Shown here: positions 7,334 through 58,143 of the stretch, in pieces
How the letters are laid out: every line of letters begins with the position of its first letter
Position numbering within the stretch: position 1 is the stretch's first letter
Assembly: GCF_022458985.1 (NCBI RefSeq)
Contig: NC_061783.1
Coordinates: 4,432,413-4,496,412 of the forward strand
Reading direction: 5' to 3'
DNA from: Mugil cephalus
Taxonomy: Eukaryota; Chordata; Actinopteri; Mugiliformes; Mugilidae
DNA length: 64,000 bases
The notes under the pieces: generated by a model
Seen by the model: only the letters and a program-made list of their open reading frames with translations
Database searches by the model: none
What the model was told of the DNA's origin: nothing
Program-made: the position numbers and the translations under genes

Positions 7334-8390
7334 ATTTGGACTTGGCTTTGAAGTCAATCACTCGTTTAACTTTCTTCATCATGACGACGGCAATTAGCGA
7401 ACACACGACCAAGGTGACGGCATACAGCGCCACGAAGAGAGCCGGCTCGCCGCTCTCGTGAAGACGCGCGTACAGTTTCCTACGGTCCACGTAGTCCAGG
7501 TGGGAGGCGTGGATCTGACACAGGGTGCAACAAGAGAGAAGGAGGTGGAAGATCTGATGGCTGTGTCCCAGAAAGTCGCACCGACCGGGGAAGCAGCACT
7601 CTGGCAGGGGGAAGGTGAAGAAGAAGGCACAGCTGATAAAGAAAGCCACCTGACCAAAGTGCGAGACGATGGTGGAGTCGGTGCTGGACCACGATAAGAG
7701 TCTCATAGCCACCGGGCTGCTGTCCCAGATATAAGCGAGGGCTGAGGGCACCACCTGGCACACCTTACGCACCCAGGTGGGCAGTCTGTGGTTGGCGTAT
7801 TTGCCAAAGCAGCAGCCCAGGCATGAAAGACAGCTGAGGAGGGTGGCAGTTGGCATGAAGAGGCCCTTCACCTGTCTGTACAAGCTCTCATCCACAGCAT
7901 AGTAAAAGTGGACGACGGCGCTGCCGTACTGATACTGCGCTACCCCGACATAGTCAAGAAAGAAGAAGCAGTAGTTGCAAAGCACCGACTTGCCACCTAG
8001 CAAGTGAGCCGTCGCGCTGAACGCCGAGTAGATGAAGGAGGAAACGATGAGGACCAGCAGGGGCCACGAATGAGCGTCGCCCGCGAAGTCTACGGTCTCG
8101 GAGAGTTTATTCAGTTTGGCCAGAAACACCAAACAAGCCAGCAGGTGAGTCCAGATGTTGACCGTCTCGTTGTGGCGCTGGAACAGCGACAGGAAGTAGT
8201 AGCGCCAGTTCTGGTCGAGCTTCCTGTAGCCGCTGCAGACGTAGCGCTCCCTGAAATAGTGCGGGACCTCGGAGTCCCTGACCGTGTCGGGCATGGAGGG
8301 CGTCGCCTCGGTCAGCATCTGGGGAACTTGCCTGATCTGCTGGAGGCTGATGAACACTCGTCCAATCCTCTCCATCACTATGGTCGCCAT
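7332..8390 (-). CDS. paqr7: Membrane progestin receptor alpha (PAQR7)
   Basis: PAQR7 is a seven-pass PAQR-family receptor that binds progestins at the plasma membrane; in fish the alpha form is linked to steroid-induced oocyte maturation. The 352-residue frame has no intron, starting at ATG 8388-8390 and ending at TAA 7332-7334. Family landmarks are visible: HNETVNIWTH (residues 73-82, with the E75/N78 motif), a His in SATAHL (H129), Asp in LDYVGV (D146) and an H-x3-H motif in GHSHQIFH (H278, H282), as expected for the PAQR metal-binding site. Seven hydrophobic segments fall between about residues 82 and 338. ETVDF-GD-H-PL near residue 98 resembles human PAQR7 more than PAQR8. A splice acceptor (TTTCCTGCAG) lies 17 nt upstream of the ATG, with the exon beginning at 8407, so at least one 5' non-coding exon is expected. 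Length is typical of the family. Which teleost duplicate this is cannot be decided here. Confidence 0.9.
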   Translation of the reverse strand: MATIVMERIGRVFISLQQIRQVPQMLTEATPSMPDTVRDSEVPHYFRERYVCSGYRKLDQNWRYYFLSLFQRHNETVNIWTHLLACLVFLAKLNKLSETVDFAGDAHSWPLLVLIVSSFIYSAFSATAHLLGGKSVLCNYCFFFLDYVGVAQYQYGSAVVHFYYAVDESLYRQVKGLFMPTATLLSCLSCLGCCFGKYANHRLPTWVRKVCQVVPSALAYIWDSSPVAMRLLSWSSTDSTIVSHFGQVAFFISCAFFFTFPLPECCFPGRCDFLGHSHQIFHLLLSCCTLCQIHASHLDYVDRRKLYARLHESGEPALFVALYAVTLVVCSLIAVVMMKKVKRVIDFKAKSK

Positions 8391-9403
8391 GACACGCTCG
8401 TGTTAGCCTGCAGGAAAAGAAACACAAGGATAAACTATTTTAATCACTTTTAACAACAATTGTTGAAAATGGCAACAGCGATTAAAATGCGAAAAAGTAT
8501 ATTTATATATAGTGGTTGTACTATATTTCTTTTTGCCTACTTTTAAGGAATTAAAAAGGTGAAGAAAAAAATTTAATTTATTTTGACGCAGAAATGTAGA
8601 AAACTCTGAAGGGCAAAATAAAAAAATAATACTAATTAGCGCCGTCTATGCATAATAAACTCGAGCTGTTCACGCGCATTCGTGCGACTAATATCAACGA
8701 CTTTTATGTCCTTTAATGTTATATGAAACACCCCGTTTTGTAGGTGTCGCTCAGTTTCCACAAAGTCCAGATTTTAGACTTTTTTGTAAAATTTATTCCA
8801 AATGTAAAAAAAAAATTTTAAAAAAAATCCAAAAAGGTGAGGAAATAAATAGGTCGCGCGCCACTTCCCTGAAAGCTGCCAACTGTTGCTTTAACACCGC
8901 TGTGTTTGTTTCACACAAAAAATAAGCATTAGCTGGTGAGTTTTGTGGTTTCCCCAACTGTCCCCGCTGCTTTAATGGTCTTCATAACTGTTCCTCAGGC
9001 TAAACATCGCCTGGGCCCGGGTTTGAAGCTACTTCAACTCGAGAGAGCTGAAAGAAATTCAGTTTCACAGATTTATTAGCTGTTATATTTCTAGCTGCGC
9101 ACTAATAAAACACGAACTTGACGTGTCCCCCCCGGGTCCGCTGCCTCCCTGTCAACTTAAGGAAACGTCCTCCCTGGTGAGAACACGCTGATGCCTGTCG
9201 GATATCTAGCATCAGGCGGACTCGCCTCGGCCAACCTGTCATGTGTGTCCTGGCCAAGGTCTGCGACTGAGCCCGGAGCAAAAACCACCCCAAAAAAAGA
9301 AACTTCTGCCTCAGCCTTGAAACCAGCGCGTAACTTGTTGCACCTTGTGCCCATCACTTCAGCAGCCTCCCCGCTTTTCGAGTGGCCCGAGATGAGCCCG
9401 TAC

Positions 9404-25873: not shown

Positions 25874-27210
25874 ATGCTGGATTTGATACAGTGGATTGTT
25901 TTCTGCGCGCTCCTCGGCTCCGTTTACGCGTCGTGCCCTCCGCGCTGCGAGTGCTCGGAGGCGGCTCACACCGTGAAGTGCGTCTCCAAAGAGCTGCGGA
26001 GCGTCCCGGCCGGGATCCCCGGATACACCCGGAATCTGTTCATAACTGGGAACCAGATCAGTCGCATCGGTCCGGAGTCTTTCAAAGGACTGGATAATGT
26101 GACCAATCTGTCACTGAGTAATAACAGGTAAGACGCGTTATGAGGAATCATCGCTCTATGTTGTGTCTGTTTATCTCTGTTGCAGTTTTTGAAGAAAATA
26201 AATCGGTTGTATGACAGTTGCAGGAATTATGGTGTCTTAGCTGTATTAAATTGACATTTTTTCCAAAGTAAATGTCTGGAAGCATCCATCATTTGTCCAC
26301 TCTATTTTGCTCTTGCATGTGATCGTATGTGATGTGTCTCATGGATCTCTTCGAATCCAGAATATCCGAGGTGGAATCACACACCTTTGCCGGTCTCCGC
26401 AACCTTCGCTCTCTGGATCTGAGCAACAACCAGCTGGCCGTGATTCACCCCGAGGCCTTCACCGTCCTGAACCAGTCTCTGCGGGAGCTCAACCTGAGCC
26501 GAGCCCTCTACAACCACTCATCGGTGATGGACCTGGCCACGTCTCTGCGCTGGAGCTCCCTGGGGAACCTGCAGGGACTGGACCTGTCCGACAACAGCCT
26601 CATCTATTTGCCCTCGCACGTCTTCTCCCATCTGACCAGCCTGCGGCGACTCCAGCTCTCCAACAACTCCCTGGTGGCCATCCACAACTCCACCTTCTCG
26701 GGTCTGGACATCCTGGAGGAGCTGGACCTCACACTGAACGCCCTCAAGGCATTGCCCGAGGAGGGTCTGCGGGAGCTGGACTCCGTGCCCAGAGCCGCTC
26801 TGCTGCTGGGGGAGAACCCATTCACGTGCACGTGTGGAATTGAACCCTTCGCTCTGTGGCTCAACAGATCACAGGGTCGCATCAGAGATGCCGAGGGCCT
26901 TGTGTGCGCCTTCCCGGCCGGCATGAGGAACACATCCATGCTCGCTGTCGGCACGTTGACTCTGGGATGCCACCAGAGGGACGCAGGGGCAGACCTCGCT
27001 CTGCAGACCTCCTACGTCTTCTTGGGCATTGTCCTCGGTTTTATAGGCCTCATCTTCCTTTTTGTACTTTACCTCAACCGCAAGGGCATCAAGAAGCGCA
27101 TCTACGACATGCGGGATGCCTGCAGGGAGGTGTGGGAGGGCTACCATTACCGCTTTGAGATCGACTCCGACCCTAGGTTATCACAGGTCTCTGCGAGCGC
27201 CGACTTGTGA
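25874..27210 (+). CDS. tpbg: Trophoblast glycoprotein (TPBG/5T4, Wnt-activated inhibitory factor)
   Basis: TPBG is a type I membrane leucine-rich-repeat glycoprotein that dampens canonical Wnt signalling at the cell surface. Coding exons are 25874-26127 and 26361-27210, joined across a 233-nt intron (GTAAGA...TCCAG) that splits an Arg codon, giving 367 residues. A signal peptide (about 1-19) precedes an LRR N-cap with C21, C25, C27 and C36. LRRs follow, such as LRSLDLSNNQLAVIHPEAF and LQGLDLSDNSLIYLP. The LRR C-cap has C241, C243, C267 and C288. A transmembrane helix spans about 302-323 and a 44-residue tail ends in SADL. The tail motif EGYHYRFEIDSDPRL is the family signature. N-glycosylation sequons (NLS, NHS, NNS, NST, NRS, NTS) are plentiful. 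The start ATG is chosen because it directly precedes the signal peptide. Teleost tpbga, tpbgb and tpbgl cannot be told apart here. Confidence 0.87.
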
Positions 27211-34799: not shown

Positions 34800-36000
34800 G
34801 GTATTGTGGAAGGGTATGATGGCATGGACAAAGGAGCTTTTTAAGGGCTTCAGAAAATAGTTAGGGTTGCTTCAAGGTTACAAAAAACATCTCTAAAGAC
34901 TTTAAAATCAACAAATCTAAAGTCAGATAGATTGTGAACAAATGGAGGAGATTTAAGGCGACTGTTACCCTCCACAGGAGTGGAAGACCAACTAAGATCA
35001 CTCCAAAAGCAAGACACATTGAAGCCTGACAGGTTCCAAAGGAACCGGGGTAACTTCCAAGCAACTAAAGGCCTCTCTCACATTGACCAGTGTTAATGCT
35101 GATGAGTCCACCATCAGGAGAACACTGAACTGTCATGGTGTACATAGCAGAGCGGGAAGGATAAAGCCACTGGTCTCTAAAAAGAAGATTTCTGCCAGTC
35201 TGCAGTTTTCTAAACATCATGTGGACAAGCCAGAAAACTACTGGGAAAATGTTTTGTGGACGTTTCAGACGAAAGTAGAATTGTTTGTCTTCAATTTGAG
35301 GCGTCATGCCTGGAGATGAAACAACACTGCATTCCAGCATCTGATCCTCATCCCATCTGTGAAACATGGGGGTGGCAATAATGTCCTTGTTTGGGCCTGT
35401 TTTGCTGCATCTGGGCCAGGACATCTTGCCATAGAGGCATATTGAGGCACAATGAATTTTGAATTATTACAATTACAAGATACTGGGTCATCCAGCAAGA
35501 CAACAAGCCCAAGCACATAAGTCATTCTACAACAGAAGATCAATACGACAGAATTGGCCATGTCGAAGTCTTGACCTTAATCCGTTTTAGATGCTGTGGG
35601 AAGACCTGAAGCAAACAATTAACGTGAGGTAACACACTAACATCTCAACTGAAACAGATCTATATAGTAAAATTTCTCCAAGCTGCAGTAGACGACTGAT
35701 CAGCAGCTACTAGAAACGTTCAGTTTCTGTCATTGCTGCAAAAGGGGGTCACCAGATAATGCAAACAAGTGTTCACTTACTTTTGCATAGATATGTAATT
35801 GCAGCATTTACTCGGATATGTAGTTTTGGCTCATTTTAGCAAATAAACAAATGCCCAAGTGTAATGTTTTTGTTTCATTTGTTTTATTGGGTTGTCTTTG
35901 TCCAGGACAAGTGTGAAAACTGGTTGATGCCTCAAAAAATTTTCATGTTCAAATGTATAAAATTCTGAAGAGTGCCATTTTTTTTTAAGTGGTAGTGTAT
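34800..36000 (+). pseudogene. Decayed Tc1/mariner transposase copy
   Basis: Several pieces of a Tc1/mariner transposase can be read in different frames. 35083-35319 gives STIRRTLNCHGVHSR, LVSKKKISASLQFSKHH, then LWTFQTKVELFVFNLRRH. About 35372-35430 gives NNVLVWACFAASGPGHLA, and about 35490-35520 the QQDN-PKH segment before the second catalytic residue. The frame is broken by stops and shifts. The first catalytic Asp expected in the LWSDE-like motif is replaced (LWTFQT). The 3' end finishes in an AAGTGGTAGTGTAT-type terminal repeat near 35987-36000. The matching 5' terminal repeat was not found, so the copy seems truncated as well as dead. Confidence 0.85.
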
Positions 36001-38360
36001 TTGAGCTATCCAAGCACTTCATTGACAGTTAAACCAGTTAAGTTAAACCATTTAGTCCTTATATGTAAATCAACACTGGATCAGAAAGACTGAAAGTAAA
36101 GTGGAAAGTATCGCACATAGTGGTCAAATATGGTTATTTAGTCAACTCTGACACTCAGTTCTGTTTTATGAGTCTTATTAGCATCTTTCAGCTCATTGTT
36201 TAGTTGTTCTGTCCCACAGCAGCTGGCAGTTAGTTCACTACTGGCTCAAAATTATTAGACAACCAAAATAAGTATCACACTCATATTGACCAGGTCACCT
36301 GAAAAGATCATCCTCTAAAAGAAAAGAACATCCTAAAACTTAAAAAAAAAAGAAAAAAAGAAAAAAACTGTCTCCAAACGAAGAGACCAAATACAACCAG
36401 AATTGATTGCAACAGCAAACCACAGCCTGGTAAACAGTACCTTATTCTTCTTTGCCACTGAGCTCCATTGTTGTCCGAAACTTATTAAAAACGCAGCAGT
36501 GAGCGACACTATTGTTGCGCTAGGTGACACGTTCCTCATTAGCATGAACACACATACACACACTGTGACTTACTTTGACTCAAGCCCACATGCACTGTCC
36601 TGCTGCTAGAAATGCCCTGTGGAGCGCTAAAGGCGTGCTGATCTGCTACGGAAATAACACAGTTCACTTTGGTTTGAGCACAATCCACAGTACTCTGCAT
36701 TGTCTTCCAACAAATGGGACAGAAGAAAGGAGCATTTTCAGATTCAGCTGGCACAGTGCGGTCTAACACTTTCTTAGACTTCCTGCGCAGCTCTTACACA
36801 TAAATCAGATGACGACGCCGCGTCGGGGTCCTCCTCCATCACGGACCTTTCGTGGTCCTGCACATGATAAAAACGTGTCTTAGTGCACAGGAAGCTCATG
36901 AGTGGAGTGGAACCCAGCGTGATGTAACCTTTACAGTTGCACGCCTGCAACTTGTCTGCAGCCCAGCCGTCTCCGCAGTTTGCACAGAATTATTCCTTTG
37001 TTAGATCTGAAACCGGTTCCATTGAAATCTGCATTAAAGGAGAAAGCATGCAGCCGTGACACATGATGCAAGCAGAGTTTGAATTCAAATGATACATCAT
37101 CCACAAGGAGAAAGGAGTCACCCACTTGGATGCGTAGATCTTATTTGGAGTCTGATTTATGCCTCCCTGTTTTGTGTTAGTTTTCTTCTTTTCTTTTCTA
37201 CAATACATCTGTCATCAGGGAAGATTCCAGTAAAGGACGTTCAGATGAATGTTGATAGGCGTAAATGGAAAGAATTCAGAGAGAAGGGAAACTGTTCCTG
37301 AAAAAAAAAGAAAAGGAAAGCCTCTGCACCATTTCCTTTGACAGGAAATTGTGTCTTTGATCTAAGCCACTGCACTCATCTGGTCATCGCATGCGAGGTG
37401 TCACTCTCTCCCACAGCGGAGAGGAGGAAACTTGCTATCACCACTCTGGCTCCCACAGGAGGCCCACTTGAATGTCACCATGAAAGACGACAGAAGATGA
37501 GAAATAAGGCGGACGATTTGAATAAACCCGGAGTTGGGGAAAAATATGATGAAAGCGAATAAAAGCAGGACAGATTGATTATTTGTCTCCCTCTTGTCGT
37601 GCCTCGCGCTTCCTCTGGCAGCAGGGGTTTGTCATTATTGAACGTTGTTGACCGAGCGCAGCTGGGGAGGAAGATTAACACCTTTCAGACTGTTCACCCA
37701 CTGACGGTGCACAGGGTCATTTTCACGTGGAGCGGCCCACATGGCCACGGGAGCCGCTGATATCACGCTCGCAAGCAAACATGACATCACGCATGCATTG
37801 TATTCCTCTCTTCTTACATTTTCATCTGAGAAAGTGAATTCAAATGAAGCAACCGATACGGAGGTTGTGGCGTCTCCAGTAAGTGATTTGTATTCTGCAA
37901 ACAGAAGGTGGAAACCGATCTTGATGCGTTGTTTGTCACAGTTATGGTCGACGGCATCATTATCGCAGCGTGCCGCCTGGGTCTATCCAGTCAGGAGGTA
38001 CAGGAGGCATCATTAGTAATGATAACAAGGCCGTCAATAGTGACGTGAACTGTCTCAGGGTCAGGCTCTGTGCAGAGAGGAGCACTCTCAGTCTAACTGT
38101 TGCAGGGAAGCGCTGTCAACTGTTACTAAATACACAAAAATCCTTTTCTATCCAAATCAAGATGATACTTGTCGGGTTTTTTTTGCACATGAACACCGAT
38201 CTGTGGACACCCTGACACCACCTCAGCAGCACCTGCACACAGTCAGCTCATCAAGCAGTGATTGGATGCAGGCTGCAGTAAATACCACCTCTCTGTTGGA
38301 TGAGCATGCAGAGCAAGTAGCTTCAGGTTGGTTGGGCTTCTGTTGCTTTGACTGGGCTGC
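36001..38360. other. Intergenic between the Tc1 copy and the secreted-protein gene
   Basis: No gene found. The segment carries A-rich runs near 36340-36366 and 37300-37316 and otherwise unique sequence. The 5' UTR and promoter of the gene at 38.4 kb should occupy the last few hundred bases; I saw no convincing TATA box. Confidence 0.45.
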
Positions 38361-38378
38361 ATGCTTTGGCACACAGAA

Positions 38379-39779
38379 ATGGCTTGTGGAGTTTGTTTGG
38401 GGTAAGTTTGTGCGTCTTGTTCAGATGTGTGTCGCGTTGACCCGTTGCCGAGGCTGACCTCGCTGTGTCGTTTCCTGACCAGGATCTTGCTGGTTTTAGT
38501 TAAAGCAGAGCATGTATGCTGTTCAAGTGCTACGGAAGGTGAGCAGCACACAAAATGTGTTGTAGTGTAATAGTGCTGCCACAGTGGACTCATTACTCTT
38601 TGTTTGTCTTACAGCTCAGCAACACGGCAACACATATGTTGGCTTCGTGCAGCAGGGTGGGAGGTTACGAACATTTGGCGTCGGTCATCCCCAGAATGGA
38701 TTCAGACAGGCCTCAGTCCAGAGAAGTAGCCTCAACACGGAGACCCCGGTTAACGGTGGTTATCATCATGGACATTCCACTAGTAGCTACACGCAAACTA
38801 TGTCACAACCAGCCCAGAGTTTAGTGAGAATAGTGCAGAGCAACTTGTTGTCACAACCTAATTGGCAATTGACGGACTTGGAATGGGTTAAATCTCAAAA
38901 GCCAGGGCCTGACGTTTCTACAGTAGTAAGTGGAGGTTCTTTAAGTAAGGGCATTCAAAAGCAAAGTGACCTTACTGTTCTGGACCAGGAAAGCACTGTG
39001 CGAGTCCAGAAGGGTACACCGCGTACTAGCAAGTATCTGAGCAGCTCTGTTTCTATTCAGAGTCCTTCTAGGGAAGGATACTTCATCTTATCCTCCATCC
39101 AACAGCCTGTTTCTCAGAAACCTGTGCCTGCCTACAGTGGGCAGGGAGGCTGGTCCTCTATGAAGTCTTCCACTCTGTTCGATGCAGATGCTCCTGCATC
39201 ACAGAGCCACTCCGCAACATCAGCTAGAGCCCCTGGTAGAAGAGCGTCTCCTCGTACCTCTAAACCCATAAGCAGAAAAAAACCCAAGCAGGCTGGAAGC
39301 GTCTACAAGAGTAGATTATTTCCTGTGACTGAAGAATACACCCAACACGAGTACCAGCCGTCTCCCACTTCCAACGCGGTGTCAAGTCCAGCCTACAACC
39401 AAAACGGTTTTAAGCCACGCAGTCTGGTGGTTCCCTCTAAACGGGTGCAGAGCTACAAATCTAGCTACGCTCCTGTTGAGCAGAACCCGAGTGGTACAAG
39501 AGAGAAATATGCCCCAACCAGGACCTACAACATCCCTGAACACTTGGGCGGCTTTGCGATCAGGCGGTTAAAGGAGCCCATCAACCAGAGGGAAGCGGGC
39601 GTCCAGACACCAGATCAGAGCTCCACGTCTTGGCAGCAGATGGGATCTTATGAGCCACAAGGCCAGACTTCATCAGGGAAACTAGCAAGTGAGTATTTGA
39701 ACATTGCTTTCTGTTTGATGCTCAAGCCTGTTTTCTAACTGCCTTTCTACCACTAGGTGCAGACAATGTCTACGGATGA
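38379..39779 (+). CDS. Unrecognised secreted, cysteine-free, Ser/Gln/Pro-rich protein
   Basis: Four exons join in frame: 38379-38401, 38483-38538, 38615-39688 and 39757-39779 (1176 nt, 391 residues). Introns are 81, 76 and 68 nt with GTAAGT/CCAG, GTGAGC/ACAG and GTGAGT/CTAG borders. The ATG has a good context (GAAATGG); an in-frame ATG six codons earlier (38361) is an alternative. The N terminus, MACGVCLGILLVLV then KAEHVCCSSATEA, looks like a signal peptide. The rest has no cysteine or usable N-glycosylation sequon and is rich in Ser, Gln, Pro and Tyr, so it is probably disordered. It has a basic patch (GRRASPRTSKPISRKKPKQ) and a C-terminal block TRTYNIPEHLGGFAIRRLKE, ending DNVYG. An AATAAA follows 12 nt after the TGA. 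I do not know the family. A secreted structural or matrix role is conceivable but unproven. Confidence 0.75.
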
Positions 39780-39791
39780 ATAGTGTTTTGA

Positions 39792-39797
39792 AATAAA
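39792..39797 (+). terminator. Poly(A) signal of the secreted-protein gene
   Basis: AATAAA lies 13 nt downstream of the TGA stop (39777-39779), with a T/G-rich stretch following, so the 3' UTR would be only about 30 nt. Confidence 0.6.

Positions 39798-47159: not shown

Positions 47160-58143
<10,984 letters not shown>

Follow-up and report, generated by a model that had tools for sequence, protein, structure and literature searches.

A putative four-exon gene for a probably secreted, Ser/Gln-rich protein between tpbg and arid1a in Mugil cephalus

The closest described systems to the locus reported here are the fish egg-coat (ZP-domain) proteins and choriogenins, the SCPP proteins of enamel, scale and bone matrix, and the cortical-alveolus sialoglycoproteins of the hyosophorin type together with the mucins. 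In the ZP egg-coat group some members are Gln/Pro-rich in part and end in a short 3′ portion, whereas the SCPP family is characterised by phase-0 introns and SxE phosphorylation motifs. Disordered secreted proteins rich in Ser, Gln, Pro and Tyr are found in several matrices.

The locus lies in a 64,000-nucleotide stretch of the Mugil cephalus genome (C14:4432413-4496412; 634.8 Mb in 24 contigs), hereafter the window. With ZP-domain proteins and choriogenins its product would share secretion, but it has no ZP module (no Pfam match at E up to 10), and the conserved ZP cysteines are not found, as all four Cys of the precursor are within its first 21 residues. With SCPP proteins it would share secretion, disorder and a Pro/Gln-rich composition; its introns, however, are of phases 2, 1 and 1 instead of 0, and the coding of its signal peptide is split over exons 1 and 2. 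The product has two SxE motifs, SRE178 and SYE371. Hyosophorin-type proteins and mucins would resemble it in being secreted and Ser-rich but are marked by tandem repeats rich in glycosylation sites: self-BLAST of the present protein yielded the full-length match alone, with no internal repeats, and the chain contains no N-glycosylation sequons (NxS/T).

Gene structure and its standing against chance

The features of the locus and of the sequence preceding it are as follows.

38230-38235, + strand: E-box CACCTG, a possible promoter element, one of 5 such motifs within 600 nt upstream of the ATG
38261-38265, + strand: ATTGG (inverted CCAAT)
38279-38284, + strand: TAAATA, TATA-like, 100 nt 5′ of the ATG; another is found at 38127
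38361-38378, + strand: possible N-terminal extension MLWHTE, from an upstream in-frame ATG
38379-38401, + strand: exon 1, start of the putative signal peptide (MACGVCLG...)
38402-38482, + strand: intron 1, 81 nt, phase 2
38483-38538, + strand: exon 2, remainder of the putative signal peptide, with a CC pair
38539-38614, + strand: intron 2, 76 nt, phase 1
38615-39688, + strand: exon 3, 357 whole codons, coding for a Ser/Gln/Gly/Pro-rich, presumably disordered body that opens with a predicted beta hairpin
39689-39756, + strand: intron 3, 68 nt, phase 1, containing a CTAAC branch-like site 22 nt from its end
39757-39779, + strand: exon 4, ADNVYG and stop
39792-39797, + strand: poly(A) signal AATAAA, with TG-rich sequence behind it

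This structure had been proposed in a sequence-only reading of the window, and its elements were reproduced: the three introns have GT-AG borders at the positions given there, the four exons (23, 56, 1074 and 23 nt) together give 391 codons plus a stop, the translation of 391 amino acids ends in ADNVYG, and AATAAA starts 12 nt after the last base of the stop codon. A branch-like CTGAC is also present in intron 1, 29 nt before its end. Since AATAAA begins at most 20 nt from the stop triplet in 79 of 3063 cases in the window, its position, taken alone, is weak evidence and lends the gene little support. The upstream ATG at 38361 is 18 nt 5′ of the proposed start, and the context of the second ATG looks the stronger of the two. 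An oocyte promoter could contain the E-boxes, TAAATA and ATTGG, but these are too common to count as evidence.

It had also been claimed that the fit of phases and junctions exceeds chance, and both the ranking of splice sites and a scan for the architecture bear this out. Scored with weight tables taken from general knowledge, the donors are at percentiles 99.6, 99.8 and 99.4 among the GT sites of the window and the acceptors at 98.4, 98.8 and 97.6 among its AG sites, so that all six are within the top 0.2-2.4%. The scan required an ATG, a hydrophobic N-terminal stretch and a pair of introns 60-120 nt long; it covered the + and - strands of the window as well as those of 180 kb of contig C11 (488 kb of single strands). 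In its strict form it returned only this locus on the + strand of the window (2 models, corresponding to the two ATGs) and none on the - strand of the window or on either strand of the C11 region. When relaxed, it gave 3 distinct exon-3 acceptors in the window, only 1 of which, that of this gene, was followed by at least 60 codons, and one exon-3 acceptor, with 66 codons, on C11. From base composition, a stop-free run of 357 codons is expected with P of about 6e-8; no other open frame of the + strand reaches the 390 codons of this one, the maximum in 100 simulated 20-kb sequences being 240, and the remaining frames of exon 3 hold 13 to 22 stops.

Codon usage is only weakly gene-like. The reading frame of exon 3 scores -0.117 and its other five frames -0.124 to -0.181, against 0.387-0.525 for four other coding stretches of the window, on which the score was itself trained. 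The maximum among 274 noncoding windows is -0.187; because all six frames of exon 3 exceed it, the excess is attributed to composition. Three-base periodicity is 1.81, a value surpassed by 1.8% of the 274 noncoding windows, with 2.4-19.6 in the four coding stretches; GC3 is 0.49 versus 0.60-0.79 in those stretches; and synonymous usage is above a null based on flank composition (z 4.0) and below all four of them. The coding status thus leans on the frame, the splice sites and the architecture more than on codon bias, the weakness of which would be in keeping with a gene that evolves fast, is young or is weakly adapted. Taken together, splice-site strength, the open frame and the rarity of the architecture give good support, as far as sequence can indicate, to a gene of four exons whose product begins with a signal-peptide-like stretch.

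Properties of the predicted protein

The N terminus contains a hydrophobic core, CLGILLVLV (mean hydropathy 3.36 over 9 residues), and candidate cleavage sites, VKA|E and later ones, that obey the (-3,-1) rule as generally known. It therefore has both features looked for in a signal peptide, and the hydrophobic core suggests that the chain is exported from the cell. The mature chain had been described as free of cysteine: this holds if cleavage falls from residue 21 on (no Cys), but after VKA16 the CC pair would be retained, leaving 2 Cys. Counted from residue 17, the chain comprises 375 residues (about 41 kDa), is very basic (pI 9.8) and is rich in Ser (16%), Gln (9.9%), Gly (8%), Pro (7.7%) and Tyr (4.3%).

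A structure was predicted for exon 3 alone, from the single sequence and without an alignment. The model has a mean pLDDT of 40.1 and a pTM of 0.18, and confidence is high only in a hairpin close to the beginning of the exon, with strands at exon-3 residues 6-13 and 16-23 and a block mean pLDDT of 85. The C-terminal block NIPEHLGGFAIRRLKE (exon-3 residues 305-320), which had been considered ordered-looking, does not appear so in the model, where the block means are 51 and 47. Such low confidence is compatible with disorder but does not prove it, since the model was made without an alignment.

The earlier view that the protein could not be placed in any family agrees with the Pfam result given above. 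Among PDB sequences the best E value was 0.11; the three matches (E 0.11-0.67) were all to carotenoid-binding protein, a likeness that we took as noise. DNA and protein searches of the fish's own genome for paralogues returned the locus itself only, the second match of the protein search being exon 2 of the gene, and searches with two blocks of the product gave, besides self, one match of the C-terminal block on contig C6 (E 2.4, 31% identity). Collections of prokaryotic and viral contigs, which could hardly show a fish gene, contained 43 and 13 pattern matches, respectively, and no relatives. Neither Rfam at the gathering threshold nor ARAGORN gave any match in the window. We met no naming of the gene in the literature consulted, egg-coat papers included, and do not claim its absence from print.

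Neighbouring genes and a putative duplicate block on C11

The following Pfam matches define the surroundings of the gene.

7335-8402, - strand: HlyIII protein
26323-27207, + strand: leucine-rich repeats
47163-49106 and 53770-54234, - strand: BAF250_C and ARID domains

We take these to be paqr7, tpbg and arid1a, respectively. The position between tpbg and arid1a given in the earlier reading is consistent with leucine-rich repeats on one side and BAF250_C/ARID on the other; the gene is convergent with arid1a. Apart from those in the window, the best copies of arid1a and tpbg (67% and 52% identity, respectively) are both on C11, 40 kb apart (C11:13239737-13241614 and 13279345-13280196), and we read this pair as a duplicate block. 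Open frames near it, which we recognise as presumably pigv, gpn2, gpatch3 and nr0b2, fit such a block. A tblastn search with the gene over C11:13170001-13350000, the 180 kb around arid1a and tpbg, detected no copy (best E value 2.0). This leaves loss of the gene from that region, divergence within it, or a later origin on C14.

Several other features of the two regions were observed. On C14 tpbg is past the 3′ end of arid1a, while on C11 it is past the 5′ end, and the order must therefore have changed on one side after the duplication. Open frames at 35065-35463 of the window (- strand) and at C11:13334685-13335059 (- strand) have a stretch with KTGPNKDI and LECSVVS at its centre in common, an indication of either a dispersed repeat or a shared relic. 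In addition, a long open frame of near-identical repeats, ICWCMDSFLPVITLERCSRSLTVSLSSC..., is found at C11:13302427-13303620 (- strand).

Possible role and alternative explanations

The favoured reading, which we consider about evenly balanced, is that of a true single-copy fish gene encoding a secreted, basic, mostly disordered coat or matrix protein. The product would probably belong among the lineage-restricted secreted disordered proteins, and the gene is probably an ordinary lineage-restricted one, the role of which is to be learned from its site of expression. In the proposed mechanism, the signal peptide split across exons 1 and 2 would direct the chain out of the cell, where the mature protein might serve an extracellular coat as a filler or adhesive that is flexible and can be cross-linked: its Gln and Lys could be substrates of transglutaminase, Tyr could form oxidative links, and the basic charge (pI 9.8) could allow binding to acidic partners. 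The fish egg coat is the favoured site, albeit as a tentative candidate of low probability. One reason for ranking it first is that very short 3′ ends may be typical of ZP genes; the ends examined in this genome, those of 17 of 74 PF00100 places, none of which can be named with certainty as an egg-coat gene and the last exons of which could not be placed, lend this no support. The other reason is that a chorion transglutaminase, which in medaka is activated by a protease at egg activation according to one report (PMC13079451), could use a Gln/Lys-rich chain. A more far-reaching version, which we regard as doubtful, is that of a new fish extracellular-coat protein unrelated to the ZP, SCPP and mucin families, restricted to one side of the duplicated arid1a/tpbg block, the disordered cross-linkable chain of which builds the coat while being pinned by its N-terminal beta hairpin.

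A real secreted protein might instead act elsewhere, in the matrix of skin, scale, bone or otolith, in mucus, or in a seminal or sperm coat. This is possible, if somewhat unlikely as we judge it: no feature of the sequence fixes the tissue, although for a mineral-matrix protein of the SCPP type the phases 2, 1 and 1 differ from the phase-0 introns of that family; the SxE motifs number two. Quite unlikely, in our estimate, is a young gene that emerged from noncoding C14 sequence once the fish genome had duplicated, weakly adapted in its codons and perhaps of little function. The lack of a copy in the 180 kb near arid1a and tpbg of C11, the weak coding bias and the lack of a Pfam family would all be in keeping with it; however, it would be unusual for a de novo gene to combine three strong introns with a signal peptide and 357 open codons, and an old, fast-evolving gene lost from C11 would give an identical picture. 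We hold a chance open frame or a dead, unexpressed gene to be very improbable, given that the open frame, the splice sites and the architecture are each unlikely by chance and that the frame has no internal stop, even though its frame-specific codon signal is weak.

Lineage-restricted secreted proteins are easily missed or left unnamed, since disordered chains defeat homology searches. Should the gene proposed here prove to be conserved among fishes, and its product to be made in the egg or some other coat, it would represent a coat component beyond the ZP family as well as a marker at a well-defined point of synteny; were it limited to a few species, it would offer a test case of how genes are born or lost following the teleost duplication.

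The ZP family itself is represented in the same genome by 74 PF00100 matches (E up to 1e-5), with clusters at C2:6.86-6.91 Mb, C3:30.61-30.71 Mb, C13:16.94-17.11 Mb and C16:2.55-2.66 Mb.
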